Shown here piece after piece: positions 962 through 44,400 of a stretch of 64,000 nucleotides of DNA (the first letter of the stretch is position 1; every line of letters starts with the position of its first letter). The notes under the pieces are model-generated. The model made no database searches, had not been told where the DNA came from, and saw only the letters and a program-made list of their open reading frames with translations. The translations under genes were made by a program, and so were the position numbers. Source of the DNA: Apostichopus japonicus (taxonomy: Eukaryota > Echinodermata > Holothuroidea > Aspidochirotida > Stichopodidae); contig NC_092571.1 in NCBI RefSeq assembly GCF_037975245.1, positions 20,236,917 to 20,300,916 on the forward strand, written 5' to 3'.

Positions 962-1091
962 TATAAATGAAAACCGCAATGAGTTGGAAAATCAAGAACA
1001 GTGAAAAAACTTCCAGCCTCCACCGGGATTCGAACCCGGGCCTTCCGCTCTGTACGAGGACACCCTAACCACTAGGCTATGGACACTGATT
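960..1091 (-). mobile_element. tRNA-derived SINE with AT-rich tail
   Basis: The minus strand has a good RNA polymerase III A box (TAGCCTAGTGG, near 1070-1080) and a perfect B box (GGTTCGAATCC, near 1029-1039), spaced as in a tRNA, inside a tRNA-like block at about 1017-1087. The anticodon arm does not pair well. A body of about 50 bases follows and runs into the AT microsatellite, as expected for a SINE 3' tail. A diverged copy lies at 22733-22850. This is better read as a SINE than as a functional tRNA gene. Confidence 0.75.
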
Positions 1092-3522: not shown

Positions 3523-3528
3523 TTTATT
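3523..3528 (-). promoter_or_regulatory. Candidate polyadenylation signal of the adaptor gene
   Basis: The minus strand reads AATAAA about 25 bases past the stop codon of the DED/DD/SH3/SH2 gene. This would give a very short 3' UTR, so a more distal signal is possible. Confidence 0.4.
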
Positions 3529-3552: not shown

Positions 3553-6500
3553 CTAGTATTGTTTGCTCAAGGGTACCGTCAAATATATACTGTCTCTTAT
3601 TGAGAACCGTTTGTAGTAGGCGATCATTTCCGTTATGGATTTGAATTTCTTGTCCAAAATTTTGTAACCGAAGTTAGTTGTCTTGATTAAAAACTTGTTG
3701 ATATCGTCTGCAGTTTTCACATTCAGGACAAGATCATTAGTCTGTGAAAGAAACAAATCCATATATTAAAAAATCGTGAACTTTTTAGAAATAATTATAG
3801 GTAAAAAATATAGTACAGAAAATGAAAATATATTATAAATTCCGTAATTCAAAAGTTAAATGATCAAATTAATATTTATATTTCATATCGCAAAAGCAAT
3901 ACGTAGGATGTTTTCTTTTTTAGCTTCTAATAAGCTGAACAAATTAAAAACAAAATCTAGCTGTTTTAAGACTTCTTTAGGTATTTTACCCTACCTTGCT
4001 TGCTTCCCTGATCAGATAAGTCCCTGATGGACATCGTCGAAGAAACTTCTCTGCCTGCTGAGGCAGTACCTTCGAGTGAAACCATTCTCTCTCAAAGAGG
4101 ATAGATTCTTTCCCCAAAAGACGACTGCAATTTGACGGTAGGACTAAGCCGATAACACCATCCTTATTTCTCCCCCTGTAAAGTGCTTTTGAGTTCTCAA
4201 ACCTCTCTTCAATCACATCTAGATGCTCGCTTCGTCGATATGTCAAAAAGTTTTCCTCACCACGACTGGCATCGGTTAAAGTTTCCACAACAAAGAGGAA
4301 ACGGTATTGTTTCTCAGCTGCATCTTCCTCCCGAACACAGTAATTTGGGATCCAACCCTGTTGGTTCATCACCTCCCCGTAATACCATCCGATCCGTCCC
4401 CGATCCTGTATCAGTATTTTCTCACCTTTCTTGATGCTCAGCTGATCTGGAGTGTGCTTGATGTATGTCTTAACAACTATCGATTGAAATGTTTCAAATT
4501 CCGGCGTTTGCTTTTCTGATAAAAAAAAACAGAAGGAAGGAAATATTAAATCAGGAATAAATGGAATTCCATATTAGAAAGTTATCTGTTAAAATGTGAA
4601 AGAAACTATAACCAGCCCAACCAGTAGTGTGGAGAGCTATTTCGGGCACAGGGACAATTAGTCCACCGGCCCATTATTTGAATTTCATTTCTACTTAAGC
4701 ATACTAATTTATTCTTTATTCTATATTTTCTCCATCCCCCTAATCGATCCGGTTACGGGGCATTCCCCCCCACTTCCCCCCACACACACAAACATCCCTG
4801 AACAGCTCTCTGCAAGCCTGAGCCCAACCATGGTTGCCACTCGTAATCTCTGCCAAACATTGAAAACAAGTATTTACCGCCACTGCTGTCGCCCTCCGTT
4901 ACATCCATTGGTATCCCCTCCAGGAATCCCCAAACGTCGGGACCATAGTTGAAATCTTTGAGTAATGACGTCAGCTTAGAGACAGTTGCAAGATGACCCA
5001 ACCTTTGCTTCCATTTGTGGAGCATGTTCGATGCCTGCTTGTGCTCACAGTCCGACTGTCGTTGAAATTTTTCAATTTCTTTGGCTGTAAATTTAAGCAC
5101 TTCTCTACCAAACGCCTTGAAACTTTTGTCGATGCAGAGAGAAAGCACTCTCAGATCGTCATCTGTCACTATCCTGTCAGAATTGTCTTCCGTAACTGCT
5201 GCTGTGTGGAAAAATCCAAAATCAGGAAGGTGCATTACAAAATATGATTCCTGATCCTTGTATAATTTCTCTCCCTCGTCATCTTTATCCTCCACATTCA
5301 TCGTCATCGTCATCGTCATCGTCATCGCCACATTCATCGTCATCGTCGTCCTCACACACACACACATCGTCTACTTCATTGTTATCGTCATGTTCATGGT
5401 CATACCCATCGTCACCGTCATGCCTATCTTTATCGTGATGGTCATCACCATCACCATCACCATCACCGTCACCATCACCATCGCCATCGCCATCATTATA
5501 CAATATTTTCAGTAAAAGACTATTACAAGCATCAAATAAAAGTAGATAATGTTTTTTCATACCAAGGTACCACATTTAAACTCGACTTCATCGTCCGGGC
5601 CAAGGGGTAGGAGCCGGGGGCACGTGCCCCCGCCTCCACACTTTTTTTCCCAAAATGGCATATATGCCTTACTGGCAAATAAAAGGTGCCCCTTTGGGAT
5701 GAGGAATTGTCTTTGGGATATCTTAAGCCTTTGCTAATTTTTAATATTTTATTTTAATTATTTACGTGCACCATAATAGTATTATGAGCATACTAACACA
5801 TCATATATACTTAAGTAATATGGCCGGTGTGTATCGGTTTATAGCATAACGAGTAATGGTTGTGGAATGAGAAAGTGCCCCTCTGATGGTGTGCCCCCCC
5901 CCCCCACTTTTTGGAAGCTTCCTACCCCCCTGGTCCGGACGTTAACATTATTTTTTGTTTTATCTGGCTTTATGTTTGATCTCTTTTGCGGCAAAGTAAC
6001 TCAAGTTGCTCTAAATGGGGTTTTATGGAAACGTTTGCCAGTACGTTCTCCTTCCATTCTCCCCCCCCCCCCCCACCCCGATTATCAAGAAAGTTTACTT
6101 ACGCTCCATCTTCAAGTACCTCTCTTCGTCTTCATCAGTAGAAAAGATCGACTCCTTGTATGCATTGACAACATCGGAAGCTTCCTGAAGCTTTTCCACT
6201 TCCAGAGCTTTCAACAAATCATTTACGTCTAGTTCTGAAATGACATCGATGGACTCCAACAAATCTATAAATGACGTAGCTGTAGTTATCTTGGCTCTAG
6301 TGTCAAAGTTGATTGCCCCGAAATATAAGCATAGATTCTGACACTCTTCAACGGAAAGCTTTTTGGCGAGAAGTTTCTTCATCATGAGGTATTGTCCAGT
6401 GAATACATTGTCCAACTTCATCCCCGCTGGGGTTGATGGGCTCATTTCCTCGTAGCTCTCTGTAAGTTCAAAATAAGAATCTTTGTTCTGAAAGTAAAGC

Positions 6501-7510
6501 CAAATGGGGCGTCGAGATCGAAGTTGAGTCATTTTGGGGTAATTATATCACCAGGTCCCTTTTTGAGTTCTTCATATCTTTTAAGTTCATTATGAAGATG
6601 TTAAACACACTACAGGCATATTTTTCTGGCCCCTTATTGACTCCAGGCCCTGTGGTTGTCAGGCGCGTAGCGAGGAATTTACCAAGGGAGGGGCAAAACT
6701 GTTGACAAACTATCAGAGTCGTAGATACGGCATTGCAAACTATCTAAGCGCAACGATATCATAAAAACATACAAAAAAAAATATGCTCAAGGGGGTGGGG
6801 GCTGCCCACTTCGCCCAACCACCCCCCCCCCTTGGCTACGCGCCTGGTGGCTGTATCTCCCTGAGCCCCTTGCCACTTACGCCAAGCTTAACAAATATGA
6901 TTATTTAACGCCATGTTAGAGCAACAACTTCTTTGACGTAAGCAGATTGGGTGTTTAAATTTATACCCGAAACTTTGTCCTCTGTTTTCAATAATCAATA
7001 GATGAGACTATAGTGTGATATTTCTACTGAAACTCTATATAATTTTGAATTACATTTTTCTCCAATTTTATACATTATGAACATACAAAAACAAAATAAT
7101 GCAGAAAACTATTATACATTACCACTGAAGGAACGATTTTTAGCTGGTGCTACAACTACAAGTTTTGGGTGTTTCAGAAAACCGGATGAAGTAGGAATTT
7201 TTGGTTCCGTTAAGCTCCGTTCGGTTAGTCTTGGTGCAGGCCGTCTGGTCATAGAATTTAAGTTCGCATAGGTATTTGGCTCCGACTCTAGTTCAAGAGA
7301 TCTCAGTATATTGTCTTTCTGCTTGATTACCCAATCGTAACTAAATTTTACCTGATCAATTTTTTCCTTTAACTCTTCTGCATCTAATGTAAGACGGTTG
7401 ATCTCGTCCTCATTTTGTCCTTGCGCAACTCTAAGGCATCGCAGATCTGGTAAGGGTGCGTTAGCGAAGTTATTTCTCCACTCTGATTGGAATTTCTCCT
7501 TAAGACCCAT
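3553..7510 (-). CDS. Predicted DED-DD-SH3-SH3-SH2 adaptor protein
   Basis: Five exons join in phase with GT-AG borders: 7510-7123, 6459-6103, 5201-4878, 4515-3995 and 3741-3553, encoding 592 residues. Residues 33-72 look coiled-coil, followed by Y81-A-N-L, a Grb2-type YxN site. Residues about 147-232 match a death effector domain (helix words LSVEECQNLC, FIDLLESIDVISE). Residues about 262-345 match a death domain (SFKAFGREV, MLHKWKQRLGHLATV). SH3 domains lie at about 366-418 (DQLSIKKGEKI, GWYYGEV, GWIPNYCV) and 427-490 (ALYRGRNKDG, LPSN). The SH2 domain spans about 501-592 with WFH, GTYLIREAS (R526 = phosphotyrosine-binding Arg) and a last-exon C-terminal half. The usual His of strand D appears to be Lys. 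The ATG has A at -3 and G at +4. An adaptor linking phosphotyrosine signals to death-fold assemblies is inferred; there is no catalytic domain. A further 5' exon cannot be excluded. Confidence 0.85.
5285..5490. repeat. CATCGT/CATCAC-type microsatellite in intron 2
   Basis: Imperfect trinucleotide and hexanucleotide repeat (CATCGT, CATCAC, with a short CA run) within the second intron of the adaptor gene, just upstream of the death-domain exon. It makes artefactual Asp/His- or Ser-rich open frames on both strands that are not genes. Confidence 0.9.
5601..5932. mobile_element. Non-autonomous hAT-like element (332 bp)
   Basis: Termini are CAAGGGGTAGGAG and TCCTACCCCCCTG, flanked by GTCCGGGC at 5593-5600 and GTCCGGAC at 5933-5940, an 8-bp target-site duplication with one mismatch. 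Subterminal runs of G and C are present. It sits in intron 2 of the DED/DD/SH3/SH2 gene and carries no transposase. Confidence 0.8.
6660..6846. mobile_element. Short hAT-like MITE (187 bp)
   Basis: Terminal inverted repeats CAGGCGCGTAGC and GCTACGCGCCTG. Flanks GTGGTTGT (6652-6659) and GTGGCTGT (6847-6854) form an 8-bp duplication with one mismatch. It lies in intron 1 of the adaptor gene and has no coding capacity. Confidence 0.8.
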
Positions 7511-8656
7511 CGTTCTGGTTATTACCGAATCTGAACATTAGTTAAACTTGTTACCTTCAATCTGTCTTTCTTGCAACTCAAATAGCTTCAACTGGATGGG
7601 TTACAAGTTACATTAAATAGAGCAAATTTAATGTAAAAAGAAAGACTAACAAAAAAAAAAACCCCATCTGATGCAAGAAATAATTTTAACAGCTCGGGCT
7701 AGGCTATACTCCACGTGTAAGTATCGGGATGCTAATGAATGATCGCTTGTCAATAAAAGTGTGGTCTCTATAAATCGGTGAGAGGGTTGTGTTTGAGCAA
7801 AGTAATTTGCGATTCTGTTACTTCATGGCATGTAGGTAGGTACAAAAGACCAAAAGTCACTTCCTTATAACACACACTGGCACATAAGAAAGACCAACCC
7901 ATAGCGAAGAATGATTCATTTGATAACAATACGGGTATTATTTGATTAACAATACGACGGAGATTAAAGTCCAAAGTTCACACCAATTAAGCACTTCTAT
8001 ATACACATGATTAATTCACAAAAATATAATAAACAATCGATCAACAAGCAATGGGTTGTTTTGAGGGGTAATCCCATTTTGAGAAGACTCAAATGACATA
8101 GCAACTAAAAGAAGAATGGTCATGGGAGATCCCAACCGTTGATTTCTGCTTCACCGTTCCCTCAATCAAAATCAAGGATCTCCTCTTCTGGTGCATGGTC
8201 ACAAATACCCTCTCCAAATTTGAGTTACTCTAGACGTCTTTTATTGTTATGACTGCGAGAAAGCCTCGGTTCTGAGAGTGGAACTGAGGGTGGGGGAGGG
8301 GTGTGAGGTGAGGGGCTAGCTAAAGTGCTTGTGCGTCAAATCCCGTCAGCTGAGAACAGCCGTCACCGGGTGGACTATTATGGGATAGCTCATCTCATGG
8401 TAGGAATTTCAGCCCGCCCCCCCCCCCCCATTTTTTAAAGGTTCCTAATTCTGTTTTTCTTTTAGGTGCGTCCTATTGGATGAATTAAGAATAACGTTCC
8501 TTGTTTCTATTGTTTTATCTTTGCTTTTGATCCCATTTTGATTCCTAATCTACGACCAAATCCTGAAGGAGCTGTGCATAGTACAGCTCGAACAGGTTTC
8601 CCTTCCTTATATAATTGCTTCACTGTGCTGTTTGCCACTTAGACTATAGTCCTTAT
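7511..8656. other. Upstream region of the adaptor gene, no further exon recognised
   Basis: AT-rich DNA upstream (minus-strand sense) of the first coding exon. A possible acceptor (GTTCAG near 7529-7535) precedes the ATG, so a non-coding first exon may lie here. No clear promoter element was identified. Confidence 0.4.
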
Positions 8657-23400: not shown

Positions 23401-26400
23401 AGCCTTCCAGAACATGTAAAACACAGTCCATCTCTTGCTTCTTTTAAACGGTCTCTCAAGACTCATCTGATGAAAACTGTTTAATTAATTGTTCACTGTT
23501 GCCCATTTTTGCTTGCATTTTTGTCTTTGTACTATTTTTACTGTTTTTTGTTTAGCTGTCGCACTGTTTGCGTCACTGCGCCATGAGCGTCTCTTTTTGA
23601 CGGATACCAGCGCATTATAAATGTCCATTATTATTATTATTTTTCGTCTCTTAAAGATGGAGCTCTGAAGAGAAACTACAAAACAGAAAATAATAGATGC
23701 AATTGAAATTGAACAACTATTGGCAAGTGGATGAGTTGGACAGCAATGAGCAGGGGATAGCTAGAGGCAGTCACAAATACCTTCCTGCCTCAACCAGGAT
23801 ATATATGCAGCAAAATGGCATTTATATTTTAAATAACTTTACTAGCATACCTTGGCCAAGAACACACAAATGTGGCTATCAATATAGACAAAGTACAAAG
23901 ACAAATTTTATATACAGACAAAATATAGAGATAGAGCCCAAACAGGAAGATATTGGAGGAAAAAGGGTTTGACTTTCGTATGCTTACCATCCTGAATGCC
24001 GACGACCACTCCTTTGTGTCCGAGAGGAACGGAATACCCATCCCTGACGTTGATGACCCGGTCATACAGTTGGTAGGTAGCTTGGGGGTCCGGTATTAGG
24101 TTCCCTTGAAATTCAAAGGGCTGCATGACAAAGAGAGGAGATTAAGTATCTTAATATCTTAATAAACCAGGTGATCAATTTCTTTGCATTTTTGGGGGGG
24201 AAGTCTCTCTTCACAAAAATCTCTGACATATATTTCATTTCATTTCATTTCATTTCATTTCATATTAAAAGCCAAAGATGATGGTTTGGGTCTGTGTTCC
24301 ATGGAAATTAAATATCAAGTTTGACGAGCAATCGTCTTACCCTGTGTAGTAAGTGAGGACGGACCATAAGCTTAACTTTCTTTGGTTTCTCACATGAGGC
24401 CTGTGGAAGAAGGAGAAAAAAAGAGGAAGTGATCATAAAATATGTATTATTTATGCGGTTCCAAAGTGGAACCACTTCATACATGCTAGAGACAAGAAGA
24501 GGATTAAGAGTTTCCTAACATATTGCGCAAATATATTTTGCTTAGACTGATATTCTTGTAAGTAAGGTTAATGTTGCAGCCTGAAATGATTTTGTTAGAT
24601 TTGCCAAATATATGCTTGCCTGCAAAGATCATCCTCTACATTGTAAACTGACAATTGCAATTGAAGAAATCCTCAACTCACTTCAAGTTTTAGAATCACA
24701 CATTTTTGAAATGCCTTCATTTACAGAGCTGCACTTTTTACCCAAACTGGAGTTTTAGAACCCTTGTTATAATCATCTGAAGTATTTTAATATTCAATAT
24801 TGATATCTTAAGTATACTTTAACATTTTCAAATTTGACCTTTAACTAATCACTATAATTATGTTTCCTTTATGTAGTTCTTATCCTATTTATAAATTTAT
24901 ATTTATACTGGAATAAATAAAATTTATTATTATTATTAAAAATAGAGATAAATGATTAAATTCACTGAATTGGCAGTCTTGGTTTTTGAACAATATTTTG
25001 AGATGTTAGATTTCAGTGGGTTTGTGTCAAGTTTATCATTCTGATTAGCTCTTAATGTGTGTGTGGATTTCTAGTTAAACTACTGAAGTGACTATTGCCA
25101 AAGCACAGAATACAGTTGTTTAAGAATTCCTTTGTTTATAGAGCTGCAATTTTTATTCAATCAAAAAAAAACTTAGATGAATTGATATAGTTTTTACATA
25201 TTTTGAATAGTTTTTATATAGTTTTTGTATATTTTCAATGAACTAACATTTGGAATATATTGCTTTAATATTGTATTTTATTATTCCTTGTGATAAATAT
25301 TTACCCATACAAGCCAAAAAAAACTATAAATTTCTGTTACCTTGGCAACCTCTTCTTCAATCAGTTTGATGATTGGTTCATCTAAAGCCAACTGACCAAT
25401 CTTGGCCTTAGCAACCTTGGTACATTCCAGTTCTGCCAGCCATTCCTTCACCTCCTTCAGACGAGTGCTGGAGGATCCAAAGACATCAGTTTCATAGAAT
25501 ACGTCGGATTGAGATCTGGTCCCTGATAGCATGTCAAAGATCTCGGGAAAGCTGAGAAGATCAGAAAACAAACGAAGAGGGCATCGTGAATTCTTCGCTA
25601 CATATTCTCTTGAGCACAGGTCATGCACAGGTAATGTAACAGTTTGCACACAATGTTTCATGCATACCCAGGTGCATTAATGTGTTAGAAATCGAGTGTC
25701 TTGTGCTATACATCGGGTATCTCCTTATTAAAGACCATAGGCTTGATCACCCCTTCTGGCACACCGCAAATTTCGAAATGAACAACTACAAGTTTATTGG
25801 GGAGCTGTTGAGTTAGTTACTTACTAACACTAATGGATAGTACACTGTATATATACTGGGGATTAAAATACCTCACCACATATTCCCATAGAACAACTAG
25901 CAGAATTCTTGGAGTACTGTTGAGGTAGCTACCTAGTAACTGTACTGGATAGTGTACAACAGTATCACCCTACCTCACTATATATTCCCATGAAACAACT
26001 AGCAGTAGTTTGGGATACTGTTGAGGTAGTTACCTAGTAACGGTACTGGATAGTGTACAACAGTATTACCCTACCGCACTATATATTCCTGTAGAACAGC
26101 TAGCAGTAGTTTGGGATACTGTTGAGGTAGTTAACTAGTAACGGTACTGGATAGTGTACAACAGTTATAAGCCCTACCTCACTATATATTCCCATAGAAC
26201 AACTAGCAGTAGTTTGGGATACTGTTGAGGTAGTTAACTAGTAATGGTACTGGATAGTGTACAACAGTTATAAGCCCTACCTCACTATATATTCCCATAG
26301 AACAACTAGCAGTAGTTTGGAATACTGTTGAGGTAGTTACTTAGTAACAGTACTGGATAGTGTACAAGAGTATTACCCTACCTCACTATATATTCCCATA

Positions 26401-29400
26401 GAACAACTAGCAGTAGTTTGGGATACTGTTGAGGTAGTTAACTAGTAACGGTACTGGATAGTGTACAACAGTTATAAGCCCTACCTCACTATATATTCCC
26501 ATAGAACAACTAGCAGTAGTTTGGGATACTGTTGAGGTAGTTAACTAGTAATGGTACTGGATAGTGTACAACAGTTATAAGCCCTACCTCACTATATATT
26601 CCCATAGAACAACTAGCAGTAGTTTGGAATACTGTTGAGGTAGTTACTTAGTAACAGTACTGGATAGTGTACAAGAGTATTACCCTACCTCACTATATAT
26701 TCCCATAGAACAACTAGCAGTAGTTTGGGATACTGTTGAGGTAGTTAACTAGTAACGGTACTGGATAGTGTACAACAGTTATAAGCCCTACCTCACTATA
26801 TATTCCCATAGAACAACTAGCAGTAGTTTGGGATACTGTTGAGGTAGTTAACTAGTAATGGTACTGGATAGTGTACAACAGTTATAAGCCCTACCTCACT
26901 ATATATTCCCATAGAACAACTAGCAGTAGTTTGGAATACTGTTGAGGTAGTTACTTAGTAACAGTACTGGATAGTGTACAAGAGTATTACCCTACCTCAC
27001 TATATATTCCCATAGAACAACTAGCAGTAGTTTGGGACACCATTGAGATGGTTACCTAGCAAGGGTACTGGATAGTGTACAACAGTATTACCCTACCTCA
27101 CTACATATTCCCCTAGAACAACTAGCAGTAGTTTGGGATACTGTTGAGGTAGTTAACTAGTAACTGTACTGGATAGTGTACAACAGTATTACCCTACCTC
27201 ACTATATCTTCCCATAGGGTAAGGAGCAGTAGTTTGGGATACTCTTGAGGTAGTTACCTAGTAATGGTACTGGATAGTGTACAACAGTATTACCCTACCT
27301 CACTATATAATCCCGTAAGACATCTAGTAATTTCTTGGAATACTGCCACTGTGCCCCATCTTCCCTCTTCTTAGTATAGCCTGGTACTTCTTCTCCAGCT
27401 TTGTTGAATTTGAGATTCAAACCAATGTTGATTCTGCTGCCACTCTTGGCATCCAAGTCAACTCCAGTACTGAAAAAAAGAAAAAAACAGCAATGCTAAT
27501 AATAATAATTGCAATATTATTTGTGAACAACAAACAAAAATTGAAGTATTTATAATGATTCAATGCTTACACTAATACTGAACACACACATGAGTATAAC
27601 TCAGATTGAATAAACCATCAATGAGTTGCTGATTTGCTAACATATTGTGTTTGTTTGATGAACTTATACAACAAAACTGAGTGTACTAAAACACAATGGG
27701 TGTAATCGAAATACAACAATGGATGTAACTGAGACACACCATGGGTGTAACTTAGAAACACAATCGGTGTATGGCAAACACACAATCGGTGTAACTGAAA
27801 CACACAATGGGTGTATTGCAAACACTGCTGCATATCCATTACTTCCAAAGAGCAAATCTAAAGGCAAACCAAGTTCATGGAATCAACAAGAGGTTTAATT
27901 TTTTAGTTTTTTTATCGTCACAAGTACCTTGGAGGAGGGCCTTTGGAAATGAAGATTGTTCCTGTGATTCTTGACACAATGTGAGGTGAAACGGACAGTT
28001 GTTTAGCCAGGACGTATGCCGGGAAATACTGCATCTGGAATTTCTGGAACGAAAATAAAACATGATTAGCAGCTTCAATCGAATGAAGCAGACCAAACAG
28101 CAATGCCATCCAGTGAAAGGGCTTTATAGGTGGTTCACATCTTGTGTTACCCCAGCATTCCACGGGGAGACTCTACCTTCATTTATCCCACCCACAGAGT
28201 TCTAAAGAGCCTCCCTTTCAGTGATGCAAAACTGTGGCACCGCAGAGCTCTACAAGGAGACTCTATGTCAGCGATAGCCCAGTGCTTTAAAGGGGAGTTC
28301 ATCTGTTATCCCACCAACATAGTTCTAAAGAGCCTCACTTTCAAAGATGCAACAGAGCTCCCAAAGGGCCTCATATAAAACTGTGGCACCACAGAGCTCC
28401 ACAAGGAGATTCTATGTCAGTGATACCCCAGTGCTTTCAAGGGGAGTTCATCTGTTATCCCACCAACATAGTTCTAAAGAGCCTCACTTTCAAAGATGCA
28501 ACAGAGCTCCCAAAGGGCCTCATATAAAACTGTGGCACCACAGAGCTCCACAAGGAGATTCTATGTCAGTGATACCCCAGTGCTTTAAAGGGGAGTTCAT
28601 CTGTTATCCCACCAACATAGTTCTAAAGAGCCTCACTTTCAAAGATGCAACAGAGCTCCCAAAGGGCCTCATATAAAACTGTGGCACCACAGAGCTCCAC
28701 AAGGAGATTCTATGTCAGTGATACCCCAGTGCTTTAAAGGGGAGTTCATCTGTTATCCCACCAACATAGTTCTAAAGAGCCTCACTTTCAAAGATGCAAC
28801 AGAGCTCCCAAAGGCCTCATATAAACCTGTGGCACCACAGAGCTCCACAAGGAGACTCTATGTCAGTGATACCCCAGTGCTTTAAAGGGGTGTTCACCAG
28901 TCATGCCAACCCAACAGAGCTTAAAAGAAGCTAGCCTTCTATGCTATATCAGAGCTGGTATAGAGACATACATTCAGCAACACCATAGAGGTCTACAAGG
29001 GTGTCTCATCTTTTGTGATATAAAAAAGCTCACATAGAGACAAATTTGAGTGATATCACAAACTTTGAGATGTTGCTAATCTTCAACGATACCACAAGGC
29101 ATTGGTAGGGGTTGACCTTCAGCGATGCTAAGGAGCATCATATGGGCTCACCCATATATGATTCCAAGGAGCATCACATGGGCACACCCTTCTGTGATGT
29201 CAAAGAGCTACACAGAGGCTAACCTTCTGTGATATCACAAAGCTCTCAAAGAGAAACTCTTTAGCGATGCAATACTGGATAAACTATTCTCTGGCGATAC
29301 CAGATACTTGACAAGGACATGTACAAAGTGATCAAAGACAACCGATAATTTTACCTGTTCTTTCCTCATGATGTGATGGAAGTCAGGTTCCGAGGGGACG

Positions 29401-32400
29401 ATGAACTGCACCGTTACTTTATCTTCTTTGGTCTCCACGACCTGTCAGAACAGAGGAAAAGAAAATAGTTGGAATAGTGAAAGGAAGGACAAGATACCAG
29501 CAATCAGAAAAACAGGGGGATTTCTTGGAGGGTACATAAGGCCTTATATAACCTAACAACAAACAAGGCCCCCAAACAGAATGTGTACATTTGTTGATTG
29601 CAGGAAAGGGGGGAAGGGAATATTATTTAGACGCAGACCCCCTCCTCCCCATACCCATCATCCTCCTCATTCAGACAATAATCCCACCCTGATATGTTCT
29701 ACTCAGGAAACATTCACAAAACAATCCTTTTTATTCTTTGATTACAAGTAATTACCTTTCCTAAGGCACCATAGTTAGGACTTCCCAACATGAAACATTC
29801 TGAATGTTTTGGAAAAACCTCCGACAAAGTCTTGAACTGTTTAAATGACTCATCGTGTACGGCAATGTCCTTAACTGTCATCTGGTAGGCAAATATCTGT
29901 GGTGTTGGAGCCCATTGCTTCTCCAGGCTGATGACACCTCCATTACCACAGATGTACCTGACAAGATGCAAAGAAGTTACTTATCGTACAGTAAGATAAT
30001 GATTACCAGCATTTATATCAAAGACGTAACTGGAATGCGGAAAAGGAAACTGTATATATTATGGAGTCAATTGATGAAAAGAGTACCACAGATAAACCTA
30101 ACACAAAGACAGGAAAAGTAACTTAAATATCATTTGATATGAACTTATGCTGTACCAACTACCACAGATATACCTAACACAAAGACAGGAAAAGTAAACT
30201 AAATATCATGTACCCACTACCACAGATATACCTAACACAAAGATAGGAAAAGTAACTTAAATATCATGTATCAACTACCACAGATATACCTAACACAAAG
30301 ATAGGAAAAGTAACTTAAATATCATTTGATATGAACTTATGCTGTACCCACTACCACAGATATACCTAAAACAAAGACAGGAAAAGTAAATTAAATATCA
30401 TGTACCCACTACCACAGATATACCTAACACAAAGAAAGGAAAAGTAACTTAAATATCATGTACCAATTACCACAGATATACCTAACACAAAGATAGGAAA
30501 AGTAACTTAAATATCATTTGATATGAACTTATGCTGTACCCACTACCACAGATATACCTCACACAAAGACGGGAAAAGTAAATTAAATATCAAGTACCCA
30601 CTACCACAGATATACCTAACACAAAGAAAGGAAAAGTAACTTAAATATCATGTACCAACTACCAAAGATATACCTAACACAAAGAAAGGAAAAGTAACTT
30701 AAATATCATTTGATATGAACTTATGCTGTACCCACTACCACAGATATACCTCACACAAATATAGGAGAAGTAACTTAAATATCATTTGACATGAACTTAT
30801 GCTGTACCAACTACCACAGATATACCTAACACAAAGAAAGGAAAAGTAACTTAAATATCATTTGATATGAACTTATGCTGTACCCACTACCACAGATTTA
30901 CCTCACACAAATATAGGAAAAGTAACTTAAATATCATTTGATATGAACTTATGCTGTACCCACTACCACAGACATACCTAACACAAAGAAGTAACAAATG
31001 TTAATATGGCATATAGGTGATGCCGACTGCATTACTACAGATATGCCAAAAAAAAAGAATATAAATGTTAAATACAGCATATTAGCTTATACTACCAAAG
31101 ATATAAAAAGAAACAAAAATATGAATATGGCAAAAAATGATTCACAATGCCACATTAACACACAAATACTTAACACAATAGGCAAGAAAATTGACAAACC
31201 ACGGATATCAATTATGTTTAGCTGAGAGAATAGCCAACTCAGAAACCCACAGTAAAAACATGAACATATCTCTTACAAAAAAACAATTCTCAACATATAC
31301 ATAGATACTAGACAGGGATGCCAGCAGGATTGGCCCATAGGACCTGAAAGTTGTGGGGACTTGGATGTCCCAAAGATTTTTCTAAGCTAATGTTGGGACT
31401 TTTATGAAAAATCCACAGAAAAAATTGTGGTATAGGCTCCAATTTGTGACGTGTATATCGTGTAGGGCGGAAACCAAAATTTCAAAATCGGGGAAAAGCT
31501 GGAATTCCGGCTATTGCTGGAATTCTGGCATACCTGACTGGAAGATAAAATGTCATACAGCTTAGAACTTACTTTCGTCCAAGCAGAGGACAGGCATAGA
31601 CCAAGACTTTGGTTGGACCAATCAAGACACCTTTCCTCTTGTGGTAGCTGTGAGGATAAAGAAAATTATCAAGTAACTACCAAAATACATCCAAGAAACT
31701 GCTATTTACCCTAAAGTGGCAAAGTATTTCTCCAAGCTAGAATGGAATTTTAGAGAAAAATTACTAGCTTACAACAAGACTCACTAGTGAACTCGAGCAT
31801 CGCCAAGGGACGAAATAACTGGGTTCGCATAGCAATTTGCTACCCAAGAATTACCAGTTGCTAATCAATATTACTTTTGATTAGCAAAAGATTCAGTACC
31901 TGCTAATGCTAATTGCTATTTCCAAGAATTGTCGAGCAATTATTGCTAATCAATTCTCTTAAACTATTTCGTCCCTTGATCGCACTTATGACATTAACCA
32001 CATCATGATAAAACTTGATGGCATCTTTGATCACAAAAGAGAAGTTTATACCGAGCATCTGAACCCTTCCACCCTTAGACTCTAGCACACTACTATATCT
32101 TTCTGGCCTTTTGAAGTAATATAAAATTAAGAACCCACTGTTCTTCATCTTCCCTTCTGATCACCATTATCAGAAACTTACTGAGATTCGATAACTGAGA
32201 CCTCGCCGTCGTAGAACCTCTCAACGTCCTTCTTGGTCAGATCTGTGCATTTGACCGAGAGTTTCTCTGTCATGTTCCTCTGGTTTGCACCTGCGGATTC
32301 CACCAGTTCAAACCGCTTCTTGCAGTCAGAGACGGCCATCACTCTGACTTCCTTCAGGTGCGGCCATTCTGCGTAGATGATCTTTCCCAGCAACTGGGTG

Positions 32401-35400
32401 TAGATCTCTTCCGCATGCTGGAGAAAGTGAAGGAGGCCAAAATAATAAAAAAATTGACAATTTGACAGACTTAGAAAGACGACCAAATTAAAAAAAATTG
32501 TGTTTGCAAACTGCTTATCCACTAAAGAGCCTGTGTAAGAGACAGCGGAACATGTTTCGATGATGAAAAGATGAGTGAATCTGAAAGCTAATTCAAATGA
32601 ATTTTGAGTCTTTACGGTCACTGCAAGGTAACTGTACATTACCTATTAAAGGTAACTTATTCATTAAAGGTAATTTCAGTCTTATTGGGTCATAGGTTAA
32701 TAGCATGGTTTCATACACCTGACAACATTCTGAAATTAGTAGAATGTCAAGGTAACTTCAGTCTTATTGGGTCATAGCTTAGTAGCATGGTTTCATACAC
32801 CTGACAGCATTCTGAAATTAGTTGAATGTCAAGAAGCACTCATCCTCTGGGTAAAGATGACCGCCCGAAGGAGACGGTCCCAGAATGAAACCACTGATTG
32901 ACCTTCACATCAAGATTTCAACTGGTAGCAACGTCCTCTTTGACACAGAGGGTCAATAACTCCGCAATCTAGACATGGATAGGGTCTCATATAAGCTACT
33001 GTAAGGCTTCCTGATCCTTGGGTCTCTAAACTAAACTTTGCAGCAATGTGATTGCTATTGGTATCAATTTAACACACGGAACAAACTTACATTACACCGT
33101 TCTATTTGAAATATTTAGCAAATTTTATGATGGTCAGCTACTCTGTAACGGAAAATACCTCATTTGAACGACAGAAAGTCTCACTTCCGACTTTTGTTTC
33201 ATTTGCCTTTTTTTAAGAAAATGACTGGTTTTAAGAAGATAACTAAGGAATTAACAGAGCAGCTGGGGCACCAAAAAAACAAGAATTCTCACAAATCAGA
33301 CCCCATAAACTGTTGGCATGCTAACATGAAATACTTCTGTGCGCCAGGATAACACTCACTGTCAGCCATTGTTTCAATGGTCTGTGAAACCACTTTCCAT
33401 CATTTTGCAGGACAAGAGACTACTAGCTACTACAAATATTTATGACATTCAGTTTCTTATAATAATAATAACAGAAAGACTCATTGTTCAGACCTTAACG
33501 TTGGTGGTATCGATAACTTTCAAGATGGTATTCTCTCCTCGGCTGTTCTGCTGAAATACTTTGACATCGTCTTTCTTGAGTTCGGACTGAAGGAAAGAAG
33601 ACGGATTTCTTGCAGTTTAAACCAAAATGGCGTTCGTAATATATACGATTGCTAGACATTTCACTGGAATAAGATGTCAACGCTCATCATATGCCAGAGA
33701 GAGTACTGTTAACACGAGATAACATATCAAATCTCGGTCTAATCTATAGGCAGTCTGTTAAAAATAATGAAACTTAACATTGCAAAAATCTCCATCCTAT
33801 CGCCATGGTAACCAGCTTTGAGAATTTGACGATTAGGGGGTGACAGCAGTGTTTAAACGAATTGTGTTGAAAAACTACCACAATCTAGTGCCAAGTAAAT
33901 TCCTTTTTTGTTTTTTTCAATCACCAAAGATTTTTACTTTTTTTGCTTAACAACTATTATGATGATCAAAAATTTTGTCTTCAAAGAAAGTACCAAAACA
34001 AACTGCTGAATTTACAGATAGACAACTAAAGTACCTAAATTTTTCTTCTTTCAAAGCATTCCCAGATAGATCAATAAGAAAAAACTCCGGACAGATCTTT
34101 CCCACATGATGATCACCTTCCCATTAAAACATTCTGATTGCACAGTTATGTCAAGGCTAGACAATACCTTGATGCGTCATTCTGTTGTTCTGCTATGTGC
34201 TACAAGAGTTTTCAAGAAAACAAGCACCTGATAATTTCAGAAATATGAAACAAATCAGCTACTACTCTGTCAAAGATTAACCCCACCAATTCTTTATTCT
34301 GATGGAGGGGGAGGATGGGGGGGTGGATATTGGAAGGTTTAGCAGTGGGTTGTCGTCTGGAAGTCGTCGTACACATTTTTAGGGTGAATTTTCAACTGAA
34401 AGTGTAGTGATCATATCATACCTCAAACTTAAGGTGATGCAGGGTCGGGAATCCCGGGTAGTAGACACCGAGCTTCACCCCCTGACAAAGGCCCTTTCTG
34501 ATCTTCTCTTTCGGTAACCAGAAGAAATTCAGAGGTATCTTCTGACATCTAGAAGAAACGAGAAAACAAGAGCCCAATGGGCACTCCATAATATCTATGC
34601 CCATATGTAACAGCTATCAACCAATAACTGTATTCCAAATTTGGCAACAATCCGACTTAAGGCTGCAGAGTTATTGCGACGTTTGACCCCATAACCTCAT
34701 TCAAATTCAGCAAGGAACCAATCATTTTCAGAGTTGTTTCTTTGAGGGTTTGATTGGCCCAAGGTACTAACTAGCAGACTTGTGGTGAGTCTGTTCCTGT
34801 ACTTGTATTGTAACATAGTTATCGGTACTCATACTTATAGTCATACTCAGAGCATTTTCAATAGTAGTATAGTAACCAATGCAAAAAGTACATAACCATA
34901 CTCATGCTTCAGCATTGTACTTATGTTTAGAGCATTGTACTCACACTGGTACTCATACCAAGGAAGTTCTATCTGTACTTGTACTCATACTCAGGGCATT
35001 TTCAATAGTAGTATAGGAGCCAATGCAACAAGTACATACTGATAATCAAGCTTTGTACTCATGTTTAAGGCATTGTACTCACACTGGTACTCATACCAAG
35101 GAAATTCTACCTGTATGCATTCTCATACTTATGGCATTTTCAATTGTGGTATAGAAACCAATGCAAAAAGTACTTAAGTGGTACTCATGCTTTTAGCATT
35201 GTACTCATGTTTAAAGCATTGTACTCACACTGGTACTCATACCCAGGAAATTCCACCTGTACTCATACTCCTGCTGTTGTACTGCTACCGTAAGTCTGCT
35301 TACTGATAATCGGTCATGCCAAAAGTTTTGCTTGGAACCAAACATTTAACAAACACAAAGCTCAAAGCTTATCAGTAGCCATTTCATGTGTGTCCTTACA

Positions 35401-38400
35401 CAAGTTTGCTTGCCACTAAAATTGAAATAAATTTTGACAAAAGGTGAAGAGCACTCACTTGGCGTGACAGTTTGGAATGTCCGGAAAGTGACCTGGCAGA
35501 GAGGAAGGGAATACAAATTGCAGATCGGCTTGGTAACTGAAGAGAAGATGCTCGCTGTGAGTATTTCTAGCAATCTCTGACTCCTTGAGGTACCGGTCTT
35601 GCTCAGCCATGGCAGTCAGCAAACGTTTCTGCGTAAGAAAAACAGAGAAATGCTCGACATATTAATGTCAACTATTAAAGTGAGGAAAACAAATGAAATG
35701 ATCACACATACTGGTGCCAACCTCAAACATGTCGGTATTAAAATCTATTACCCATCAACTGAGCCTTTCCAATGAAAAAGAAAAATGTTTCAGTAAACTT
35801 TTTATCTTTTTTTATCGATTTTATGCTATATTTTACTGGACTGGTAGGCCTAAGATATTGACATGACACAGCTGGTGCCTGTGTCTACGAAACTTTCCTA
35901 GGGTATGTTAGAAAATTGCCTTTGATTCTTTGAGGGAAAAAACAGGGTACCCCACAGGGACACAAAGGAGACAAGGGCAACCCTCAAGAAAGTCGAAAGC
36001 AAGCACAGAAATGACAACAAATATGGAAATATTCATGATACTGTTCTTACAATGTATGTGTAGGTCTTGACTACCTCTCATGTAGGCGTCTAATAACTTT
36101 ACTGTGACAGCGATATCGCTAGCGTTTAAATCCATGACTCCTGGTTTAGTTTTACTATGAAGTTCATATTATAGAATGTCTGTTATATAACGCACACGGG
36201 ATGCACTGGTTGCTTTAGCTTTATAGTAACTCTGTTCAAAACAGTTTAACTATTACCTTCAACACCTCTTATATTATGAAATGTCTGTTACATAAGGCAC
36301 ACAGTAAGCATTGGTTAGCTTTAACTTTACAGAAATAATCTGTTCAAATCAGTTTTATTATTACCTCGTCTATGAATGGTATCTTCACAACGGCTTCCCA
36401 AGATTGTTGTTTGCCGTTTAGGTCTTCCTCAAACTCTGCTGGGTAGTAGTCAATAATAGGAGAATTGGAATTAACCATCAGACCCTGGTGAAATATGGAA
36501 AGATAGGGAAAGATTGACTTTTGGAGGGCCCAATGAGAGTTTAGTTGACAGAACAAAACCAATTCATTCTTCCTGTACCCAACCATATCCCATATCTCAT
36601 GCACATATCCCATACCCGGTACACATATCCCACACACATATCCCACACACATATCCCATACCCCATATTCGATACACATATCTCACACACATATCCCATA
36701 CACAATATCCAATACACATATCCCATACACATTATTCAATACACATATCCCATACACATTATCCCATACGCATATCCCACACACATTATCCCATACACAT
36801 AGCCCATACACATAGCCCATACACTAATTATCAGTGGCATTCTGTTAGCATCAAAACTGCCATAAAATTGACTGCACATATTACAAACACCACCACTACA
36901 CCTGGCATATATACCTGGTAGGCTTCAGGGAGCAAATTGACACATATTACAAATACCACCACCACCACACCTGGCACACGCACCTGGCACACGCACCTTG
37001 CATACACACCTGGCACACACACCTGATATACATACCTGGTAGGCTTCAGGGAGAAAATCTTTACTTGCAGCAGGAAGAACGGCCAGCAGCTGCTGGAAGG
37101 GAAGGAACGGTTTGCTCATGTCGTACTCCAACTTCATGTTACTGAACCCAGTGATGTCCGAGACGTAGGGCGCATAGTGGAACGGATAGTACCTGGTCAA
37201 TGAAGAGAGGTATTGGTTAAAAACAGATAGAGTAGATAAAGGAGTCCATTTATCAGCAGAGAGGTGGGAATGATAGTCAAATAGTGCACAGGGACTTACG
37301 CAGAATATGACGGAAGGACAATTTTGGCAATTTATTTTGCAAAATACAGAGGGCATCCCTTCCTGCCCTAGACAAATGTTATTTTAATTAAACAGTAATA
37401 AAGACATTAACACAGAGCCTTATCAAGTTTGTTAGCCCACTGAGGGTCAAACTACTGTCCTCCTTCTTTCGAGCTTCTTTAGATAGAGAAGCTCCAAGAA
37501 CTCACCAGCTCCAGGACTGGACACCATCATAGTAATAGTGTAAGATCCACTGTATGGCCCTCACATATTCTAGCGCTAGCACCTTGACTTCCTCACTGAA
37601 AAATAATAGCACATAAATGCTGTTAATATACATTCATGCATATTCATTAATTCATGCATATTCATAATCATGAATATTCATGATCATGCAATATACTCAT
37701 GATTCATTCAATGCTTTTTATATACATTCCTGCATATTCATTCATCATGCATATTCATTCATCATGCATATTCATAAATCATGCATTTTCATAAAATCAT
37801 AAATATTCATCAATCATAAATATTCATATTCATACATACATCACAAATAATGGACTGTGAGGGGTGAAAGATGAAGTATATTAATATCTAGTTCATTTGC
37901 ATCTGCCTGGCAAGCAGATATCTCTATTCATGGATATATTCGTTGCCAGTTGTGAACTAATTCTCATTGGTCTGGATAGTATTGCACAAGGTGGTATCAG
38001 GTGATATGCTTGCAAGACATCAGCATTCTACACTGAGGACGTAAACATACTTCATTTCTACTCACTCAGAAACAATATCCTTCTCCAGTTTATCTCTGTA
38101 GTATTGCCTCTTTTTCATCTTCAATTCCAGAGCAGATGTGTCACAATCTTCATCACTAGCATCTGAAATAAGACAACAATCATGTGTTTCCTTCTAAAAT
38201 ACTCTTTTTTCTTCTCTCCCAAAATTTGATGTATGTTTCATTAACTGTCAATTTACACTGAATTTAAGTCCAAAATGACCAAAGACCAAAAAGGAAATCT
38301 TATGAAGAAATATTATCTTCCCTTTGTTGATAAATTGTACTTTAAGTACTTAAGTACAAAAACTAAAGACCTATTCAGCTCAGTTGTCATGGTTATAACA

Positions 38401-41400: not shown

Positions 41401-44400
41401 TCACCATGGTGATGTGTAGGGGTGCCATCACCATGGTGATGTGTCTGGGTACCATCACCATGGTGATGTGTCGGGGTACCATCACCATGGGATGTGTAGA
41501 TACCATCACCATGGTGATGTGTCGGGGTACCATCACCATGGTGATGTGTCGGGGTACCATCACTTAGGATCCATGAAACAATATGCAATCTCTACAAGTG
41601 AATGCTGACTTATCGTTTACATTATACTGTAAGATTTCAATGTTAAGTTTTAAATTTGTTAACGGGGTCGGTTATGTATACTGTAGCTGCAGAAGACAAT
41701 TCCGAGCCAAAAATGGGCAACAAGAGTTTGCTGAGGGTCTTTGTCAATCTTTGGGAAGTGAAATCATAAAATGAGTGTAAACAGAATGTGTTACAATGGA
41801 GTGCTCAGTCCAAATTTACCAGTCGAGTAGCAAAATCTATACGATTGATTTTTATTTGAGAATTGCAAAGTGAGCCCAGATGTTTATAATTTTCTTGTTG
41901 GAAAATGAGTACCATTCTTACGGTGACCTGAGGAACAACTAGTTTATTTATGGTGAACACTCAGCCATGGCTTTTCACAGGCTATAAGTCATATTGTGGT
42001 TGAACAAACCTACGAGGAAAGTCTAGCGCCACCAAAGGACCAACTGTCAATTGATGAATACTGAAAGGACAGAAAGCAACTTTTGACATAGTTTACGATA
42101 CTTGTCGAGACCAACAATCCTAAAACGGATTCCTGCAGACTGGTCAGACTGGTTTACTGGGGAGCGCAAACTGAAACACCGTCATCTGTTCATGGCTGGT
42201 GCTTGTTAAAATCATGGGCAAAAATATTTTCCCTTGATTGGTTATATTTGATGAGAAAACGGGGAATTGTAGTCTTCAGTTTTGTAGACAAGGTTTCATT
42301 CATGATGACGTGATGTGTCGTATTGGCTCAACTAAAGCCTACATGACCGAGACTGGTTAAATCTGGATGAGTTGTAATCATAGACATGTGCACACTACTC
42401 ATAGAACCCTTAAAATTCAGACTGCTGTCACAGAAATCATTTTCACACTTTCCATGATTGCGCTTTGGTTAAAAGTCGTTCTTAGCAGCTCGCCATTTAT
42501 TCTTTACTTCTTGTGAACTGAAAGGTAGTCATGTGTCACACTCTACCATCAGAGCCGGTTAGTGTGTTTTATGTCAATTTTAGCAAGATAGATCTCTTAA
42601 AGCTATACATATCAGTTCGACCAAATGGGCTTAGTTCTAAACCTGTCACATATGTGTACAACTCTGCTCTTTTGTGGTGTCCTGTTGTCCTCCAACTAGT
42701 AATAAACTTTGGTGGCAGCAGTGGGATTCGACCATCAAACATGGAAGATGACCTACCCTAAGTTCGGTGAACTCTTCTGCGAGGTATTCCCTGAGTAACG
42801 ACAAATGCAGCAGATGGAATGTAGTCTCCTCAGGAGTGGTAGGTCGTTGAGACTGAGCCTGTCTACCGAATCTAACCTCCTCTCTCAGCAGCGAGAAATG
42901 AGGTTCGTGGGAAACCAATCCTAGCATGAGCTGGAAAACAAAACAAGATGAGAGACACCCATTGTGATCAGTGACGATATAAGCCATTCCATGATTTAAA
43001 CTGCTCATGAATAGGTCAAACATCCAGTAATCACAAAGCTCCTGTTAAAAGTTTAAAGAGTTACTTGAGACATGGCAGAGTGCTATAGTTGTGGTGAGAC
43101 ATGTAAGTGAGGATTCTGAGGATGCTTAATTAATCAATCGATACTAGTACAACCACATATGACATGTGTACATAAATGTACATTCTCATGTATATACAAA
43201 GACTTAAGATGCAATGCTATCATCATTCTTCAAGGATACCAGTGATTTATTTCATATTATTAACGCTCATGTATATTCAATGATTTGAGATGAAGACAGT
43301 CAGTCTAAGTAGTTGTAACTGAAGGTATAGGTAACGTTGTCAAAGCAGATAAACTTAATGAGTCCACAATGGACATGTACAGATGGAACGGTTCAAGGCA
43401 AACTTAGTTAATACTAATGTTCTGGAAGATGGCACTTGCTAGAAAATAACGCCCCCCTCCCCTTCCATTCTCAGCATTCACAGTGACTTTGGAGCAATGC
43501 ACAGGCATATTTTGTCAACCTTATTTAGCTCGATGGTTCAGGAGACACTGCAGCATCAGCAAAGTCAGTGCGGGTGGTGGGACATTCTCTGAAAGATTTC
43601 ACATATTGTTACATCATACTCACAAGGTCAGCATCCAGTCCATGAAGACAGTAAGGGGGGGGGGGGGAGGTGGGACATTCTCTGAAAGATTTGACATATG
43701 GTTACATAATACTCACAAGTTCAGCATCCAGTCCATGAAGATAGTGGGAGGGGGTAGGTGGGGGGAGGTGGGACATTCTCTGAAAGATTTGACATAATGT
43801 TACATCATACTCACAAGGTCAGCATCCAGTCCGTAAAGACAATGTCTTGTGTTTGGATCGTAATCCTTTGCACACTTCTCGGATCGAATGAAGTCCATTA
43901 TCTTGTGCTCGCCCTCTCCTGGGGTCTAAAATTAACAAAACAATTAATATTCATGAAATGGCATTAACTATGCACAACATAAAATAAGGTAAAACTTAGT
44001 TATCACAGTTTGGCATTTAAATTAACAGTATTTGTCTGATAGAAAATGCATTTTCATGAACAAAAGCATGCGTTTACCTTGCATAATATATATTTCTTAG
44101 AATATTTTTGATCAAAGTATGGACAAAGTGGATAAAAGGTATTAAACGAGAGAATGTTCGATTTCATTGGAATGGCAGATTTCAGCCTTGAACGATACAA
44201 ACTTTGTTGTCTAAGTTGTGCAGCACATATTTCAACCACACTTATTGTGTTTATCAAACTACGAAGAAAAAAAAGGAGCCAAGGTCAGAGACAATTTACA
44301 AATGTCTGGAAAACAGAAAAAATGACATTTGAACTAGAAATGCCATTTTTCCTCCCATTCCCCACCCCCCCAAACCCTTTAATTTTTGGCTTTTGGTAAG

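Follow-up and report, generated by a model that had tools for sequence, protein, structure and literature searches.

A predicted sea cucumber protein with DED and death domains ahead of a Nck-related SH3-SH3-SH2 unit

Introduction

The link between growth-factor-type tyrosine signalling and death-fold signalling is usually made by separate adaptors. Nck adaptors carry three SH3 domains and then a single SH2 domain, and FADD carries a DED followed by a death domain (DD) and ends after the DD. Here we analyze a predicted gene in which domains of both kinds are encoded in one chain. The gene lies at positions 7510-3553, on the minus strand, of a 64,000-nucleotide stretch of the Apostichopus japonicus genome (C11:20236917-20300916, hereafter the window), whose guanine-plus-cytosine content is 38.7%.

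Joins of this general kind have been described. The accessible part of one report (PMC2575513), citing Howard et al. 2003, presents engineered DED-SH2/PTB adaptors that redirect tyrosine-kinase signals to apoptosis. The same part describes death-fold hybrids of amphioxus, namely DED-NACHT, death-caspase and TNFR-caspase proteins. In the portion available of a further report (PMC8195603), TRADD-N (NCOA6 clade) proteins carry an SH3 or SH2 domain behind TRADD-N. An earlier reading of the window from its letters alone (the sequence-only reading) knew of no described protein joining the FADD and Nck arrangements. In agreement with this, no natural DED/DD-SH2 adaptor was among the papers listed by our literature searches; an unremarked entry of this type may exist in the general protein sequence databases.

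Results

A five-exon gene model

The gene model was rebuilt from the DNA. Five minus-strand exons run from ATG to TAG and are predicted to encode one chain of 592 amino acids. Exon 1 (7123..7510) contains the start codon, a coiled-coil-like stretch (about amino acids 5-75, judged by eye) and then a linker. Exon 2 (6103..6459) encodes the DED and exon 3 (4878..5201) encodes the DD, both being symmetric phase 1-1 exons. Exon 4 (3995..4515) holds the first SH3, the second SH3 and the start of the SH2 in a single exon, and exon 5 (3553..3741) holds the remainder of the SH2 plus the stop codon. Splice sites were selected visually on the basis of the open frames, after which they were checked with a script. 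The introns measure 663, 901, 362 and 253 bases, all four are GT-AG, and their phases are 1, 1, 1 and 0. The phase-matched exons and the 592-residue chain of the sequence-only reading were thereby reproduced. An alternative acceptor of exon 3 is possible 3 or 6 bases later, which would give 591 or 590 amino acids. An in-frame stop is present at 7538, upstream of the ATG, and AATAAA, a candidate poly-A signal, is located a short way past the stop codon (3523..3528, minus strand).

The first Met of exon 4 is amino acid 406, inside the first SH3. Because no Met precedes this SH3, exon 4 is hardly the start of a separate gene, and a single predicted gene is favoured over two. We searched the whole assembly (671,581,487 bases, 35 contigs) with the window protein. 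The search returned the gene's own exons at 91-98% identity, and all other matches were at most 37% identical.

Identities of the domains

Three of the five claimed domains scored above the curated Pfam cut-offs, namely the SH2 (1.1e-12), the first SH3 (SH3_2, 1.2e-10) and the DD (Death, 2.1e-7). The second SH3 had no Pfam match, and Pfam found no catalytic domain in the window protein. A Pfam search had been named in the sequence-only reading as a way to check it; for the DD, the first SH3 and the SH2 the outcome agreed with that reading, and for the DED and the second SH3 it gave no match.

These two domains were recognized with profiles built from other exons of the genome. Exon 2 scored 56.8 bits (E 3.9e-16) against a profile of nine other DED exons, compared with 13.7 bits for the best of 4000 shuffles. 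The profile was built without the window DED, which lies at 6155..6400 on the minus strand (residues 20-101 of P0001). Its members were seven of the 12 fetched DED loci plus L020 and L024; L034, L036, L037, L039 and L040 were omitted as close copies of members. In pairwise BLAST comparisons, the window DED was 34% identical to L020 (3.4e-9) and 32% identical to L030 (1.2e-8). The DD (4930..5181, minus strand, about amino acids 256-339) scored 56.2 bits against a profile of four other DDs, the best of 2000 shuffles reaching 10.6. Both profiles depend in part on the window protein, since L020 and L024 (DED) and L021, L024 and L025 (DD) were found by their likeness to it. The second SH3 scored 32.2 bits against a profile of four Nck-group third SH3 domains, and the best of 5000 shuffles scored 7.3. 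Thus, all five domain identities were borne out, the DED and the second SH3 by profile scores far above shuffles.

Related loci on C10

Three loci on C10, which the sequence-only reading overlooked, carry other subsets of the same modules. The locus at C10:0.40 Mb (minus strand) consists of an exon like window exon 1, a weakly DED-like exon and an SH3-SH2 exon. Its SH3 scored 23.1 bits by profile, and within the DNA stretch examined there its second SH2 exon could not be located. The locus at C10:14.99 Mb (plus strand) has a DD (Pfam, 8.7e-10), an SH3 (18.0 bits, profile) and an SH2 split over two exons, and the 6 kb upstream of it yielded no DED. The locus at C10:14.97 Mb (minus strand) encodes SH3-SH3-SH2, with SH3_2 and SH2 above the Pfam cut-offs; neither a DED nor a DD was detected in this gene and its upstream stretch. 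A coiled-coil-like first-exon candidate (L042) is present 8 kb upstream of the 14.97 Mb locus; it was rejected as a counterpart of window exon 1, its match being not above shuffles.

We compared the exon phases and the SH3-SH2 parts of these loci, whose splice sites were chosen by eye. The SH3-SH2 exon is of phase 1-0 in all three, and the DED-like exon (0.40 Mb) and the DD exon (14.99 Mb) are 1-1, as in the window gene. The related loci are 33-35% identical to the window gene in the SH3-SH2 part. The window gene is the best non-self genome match of the SH3-SH2 part both at 14.99 Mb (2.1e-11) and at 0.40 Mb (1.0e-4), and the DDs of the window gene and the 14.99 Mb locus share 27% identity. These comparisons show that the C10 relatives, as predicted, carry other subsets of death-fold exons ahead of a related SH3-SH2 unit. 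Since three loci share modules, phases and SH3-SH2 kinship, which is our main evidence, the predicted fusion appears to be real and a member of a small gene family. The DED and DD exons have phase-1 borders, which suggests exon shuffling as the origin of the fusion.

Relationship of the SH3-SH3-SH2 part to Nck

The Nck gene of this genome is L018 (C10:17.02 Mb), in which Pfam finds three SH3 domains plus the beginning of an SH2. Its top solved-structure match is NCK2 (8e-24), and NCK1/NCK2 chains match each of its three SH3 domains. Exon 4 of the window gene aligns with SH3-2, SH3-3 and the SH2 start of L018 in the same order (BLAST, 26% over 202 columns, E 2.7e-19), and a single open frame covers these three elements in both genes. 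Furthermore, the window gene, L018 and the three related loci all have a phase-0 intron within the SH2, after the FLVR strand, and its position differs among them by no more than one codon; this intron is not exclusive to Nck, and other SH2 genes may share it. The alignment and the intron comparison show that the predicted SH3-SH3-SH2 part shares homology with Nck over SH3-2, SH3-3 and SH2, and they support the Nck-type assignment of the sequence-only reading. Nck has three SH3 domains before its SH2; two were found in the window protein.

The two SH3 domains differ in what they retain. In the alignment with L018, the first SH3 (4328..4480, minus strand, amino acids 369-419), the counterpart of Nck SH3-2, retains its Trp and ends in P-N-Y. 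By contrast, the second SH3 (4115..4309, minus strand), the counterpart of Nck SH3-3, is diverged; L018 has a W-W pair and a final Tyr that are absent from it. The Trp, P-N-Y, W-W and Tyr residues have functional meaning in SH3 domains. With its W-W pair and last Tyr missing, the second SH3 may no longer bind proline-rich ligands. The first part of the SH2 (3995..4084, minus strand) holds the FLVR-type Arg, R526 (codon 4009-4007), which is invariant in all four aligned rows.

Nck and Nck-like genes (L018, L022, L017 and L015) are clustered at C10:17.02-17.08 Mb. This cluster may be the source of the SH3-SH2 part of the window gene.

Comparison with FADD and other death-fold genes

The window protein has the order of FADD, a DED and then a DD; FADD has nothing but these two domains, and the predicted chain of the window protein goes on with SH3-SH3-SH2. 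The window DED is closest to L020 (C1, 14.95 Mb; 3.4e-9), and the FADD-like L024 (C1:19.956 Mb) matches it at 3.8e-4. In the tree, the window DD falls in a region of long branches and weak support that also holds L024 and four other DDs. The FADD-like pair at C1:19.956-19.958 Mb is itself just under the Pfam cut-offs when scored exon by exon (DED 35.7 of 35.9 bits, DD 22.2 of 22.6 bits). On C16:1.870-1.895 Mb (minus strand), DED, DD and caspase matches occur in this order twice, the DED of the second set containing a stop; we regard these sets as candidate DED-DD-caspase genes. A reading of these two C16 DED-DD pairs as FADD-like genes was dropped because of the caspase matches downstream of them. 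The label FADD-like given by the sequence-only reading is apt for the order of the domains. Beyond the order it is not clearly supported; the C16 candidates share that order and the best match of the DED lies elsewhere.

Possible partners were also found. DED matches at 33.762 and 33.761 Mb are accompanied by a caspase match at 33.753 Mb on C17 (minus strand), and those at 17.487 and 17.484 Mb by one at 17.472 Mb on C23 (minus strand). Both sets are candidate tandem-DED caspases and possible partners of the window protein. DED exons are strongly expanded on C16, which has at least 25 of the at least 32 matches above the Pfam cut-off.

The first exon

A coiled-coil-like first exon had been overlooked in the sequence-only reading. 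Judged by eye, window exon 1 is coiled-coil-like. It matches the first exon of the C10:0.40 Mb gene (L043) with a phmmer E of 0.00095, the best of 2000 shuffles giving 0.017. Pfam gave no SH3 match for exon 1, and a phmmer search of exons 1-3 against solved structures gave nothing significant (best E 0.082). A Bcr-type oligomerization domain was considered and rejected. Bcr-Abl_Oligo (PF09036) matched exon 1 at E 0.034 and 14.6 bits against a cut-off of 23.1, and the related exon 1 scored 13.2 bits, likewise under this cut-off. The genome search for this domain yielded no match above the cut-off, and a profile of the two exon 1 sequences found no Bcr chain among the solved structures. We retained the label coiled-coil-like only, as judged by eye.

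The junction of exons 1 and 2 (window 6459-6440) encodes E-S-Y-E-E-M, a YxxM motif, which we take to be of the PI3K SH2 site type.

Other features of the window and the genome

Exons of the 5'-3' exoribonuclease XRN1 are present at window 25284-37383 (minus strand), with XRN_M (two frames), XRN1_D1 and XRN1_D2_D3 above the Pfam cut-offs. XRN_N matches a frame at 42649-43044 weakly, under the cut-off, and glutamine/proline-rich frames at 14.4-19.1 kb may be the 3' part of the XRN1 gene. A tandem array at 2097-2760 has 4.0 copies of a 168-base unit with 96% matches. ARAGORN called a tRNA-Cys (anticodon aca) at 1014-1087 (minus strand), which may be a tRNA-derived repeat. Outside the window, C14 and C4 contain many near-equal-scoring SH2 matches in open frames of about 133 amino acids, possibly a recent family expansion.

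Discussion

Given the evidence described above, we consider it probable that the locus is one gene for a Nck-derived adaptor, which would bind a phosphotyrosine protein by its SH2 and gather DED/DD partners. The SH2, with its phosphate-binding Arg retained, would anchor the protein to a receptor or scaffold at a phosphotyrosine site. A proline-rich partner may be brought in by the first SH3, and the coiled-coil-like start may promote self-association or clustering. The DED and DD would then recruit tandem-DED caspases, FADD-like proteins or DD receptors, and tyrosine kinases could thereby control the onset of a caspase or NF-kB-type assembly. We infer that a protein of this architecture could bridge tyrosine-phosphorylated proteins to death-fold complexes.

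Several results weigh against this explanation or against the kinship on which it builds. For the DED, Pfam gives no match for exon 2, and the RxDL motif, a feature of vertebrate DEDs, was not seen in the window DED. When exons 4-5 were compared with solved structures, RASA1, SHP2 and Grb2 ranked first, and no Nck chain was among the best 60 of 227 matches. In the genome search with the window protein, Nck itself appeared at 1.9e-7, below several Nck-like loci. The kinship with the C10 loci is not reciprocal, since the window protein finds C10:14.97 Mb (2.4e-13) and the Nck-like L015 (3.3e-12) first, and it matches the DD-SH3-SH2 locus at 14.99 Mb at only 5.9e-10. The separation of the window gene and the three C10 loci from the Nck group in an eight-row tree is weakly supported (63/82), and the tree comparison of one versus two captures of the DD gave an approximately unbiased (AU) p of 0.166. 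At C10:0.40 Mb the DED-like exon is weak (16.2 bits versus 13.7 for the best shuffle), and the DED-like and SH3-SH2 exons have no Pfam DED, SH3 or SH2 match; at 14.99 Mb the first SH2 part is just below the Pfam cut-off (19.6 of 21 bits). Regarding the possible partners, one DED in each of the C17 and C23 sets is under the Pfam cut-off, and the DED and caspase matches are about 7-15 kb apart, which makes one gene per set a tentative reading.

The main rival is a decoy role, which we judge unlikely. The protein would bind DED/DD partners without activating them, and tyrosine phosphorylation would set the place of this brake; c-FLIP is the model for such behaviour. The absence of a catalytic domain in the Pfam search and the divergence of the second SH3 are in keeping with a decoy, as is the finding that the two related loci with a death fold show only one such domain each. 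FADD, however, is also without a catalytic domain, and no result here separates activation from inhibition.

The remaining rivals question the gene itself. A decaying or unexpressed shuffled gene without function would account for the typical residues lost from the second SH3 and for the merely 33-35% identity of the related loci in the SH3-SH2 part. Such a gene is hard to reconcile with five open exons, intact splice sites, the retained SH2 Arg and the DD and DED scores far above shuffles, and we consider it very unlikely. Even more improbable is the wrong joining of two adjoining genes, one with the coiled coil, DED and DD (exons 1-3) and the other with SH3-SH3-SH2 (exons 4-5). AATAAA/ATTAAA hexamers do occur within introns 2 and 3, although these are common in AT-rich DNA. 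Exons 3 and 4 are separated by a 362-base GT-AG intron of matching phase 1, and exon 4 offers no Met ahead of its SH3. Moreover, two related loci have a same-phase death-fold exon upstream of an SH3-SH2 exon, although those joins were predicted in the same manner.

If the Nck-derived adaptor explanation is true, one natural protein with a phosphotyrosine reader, a DED and a DD would be a direct wire between both types of signalling, of a kind previously built by hand. We tentatively extend this explanation to a sea cucumber family of Nck-derived death adaptors, a possibility that we put forward with reserve. In such a family, swappable phase 1-1 DED/DD exons would be preceded by a coiled-coil start and followed by an SH3-SH2 end, and the members would wire different phosphotyrosine signals into DED/DD assemblies, as nature's counterpart to the engineered DED-SH2 death switch. 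With the related genes, the contributions of the individual modules could be compared in a single animal, and the locus would be a clear case for exon shuffling via symmetric phase-1 exons.

Among the known systems, the predicted window protein belongs neither to Nck, with its three SH3 domains, nor to FADD, with nothing past the DD, though it is Nck-homologous and FADD-ordered. It shares with Nck1/Nck2 the order SH3-2, SH3-3 and SH2, the one open frame and the SH2 phase-0 intron. It differs in that the first SH3 of Nck is absent, a DED, a DD and a coiled-coil-like exon stand in front, and the second SH3 is diverged. With FADD it has in common a DED and then a DD, with no catalytic domain found; unlike FADD, it continues past the DD into SH3-SH3-SH2. 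The engineered DED-SH2/DED-PTB chimeras, as presented in the accessible part of PMC2575513, likewise join a DED to a phosphotyrosine-binding domain. They are man-made, whereas the window protein is natural and adds a DD, SH3 domains and a coiled-coil-like start. The amphioxus hybrids in the same part of that report are comparable as novel joins of death-fold and other signalling domains in a marine deuterostome; unlike the window protein, no natural join to SH2 or SH3 is reported for them there. The TRADD-N proteins, in the available portion of PMC8195603, also have a death-related adaptor domain joined to an SH3 or SH2. Their base is TRADD-N, whereas the window protein combines DED-DD with a Nck core.

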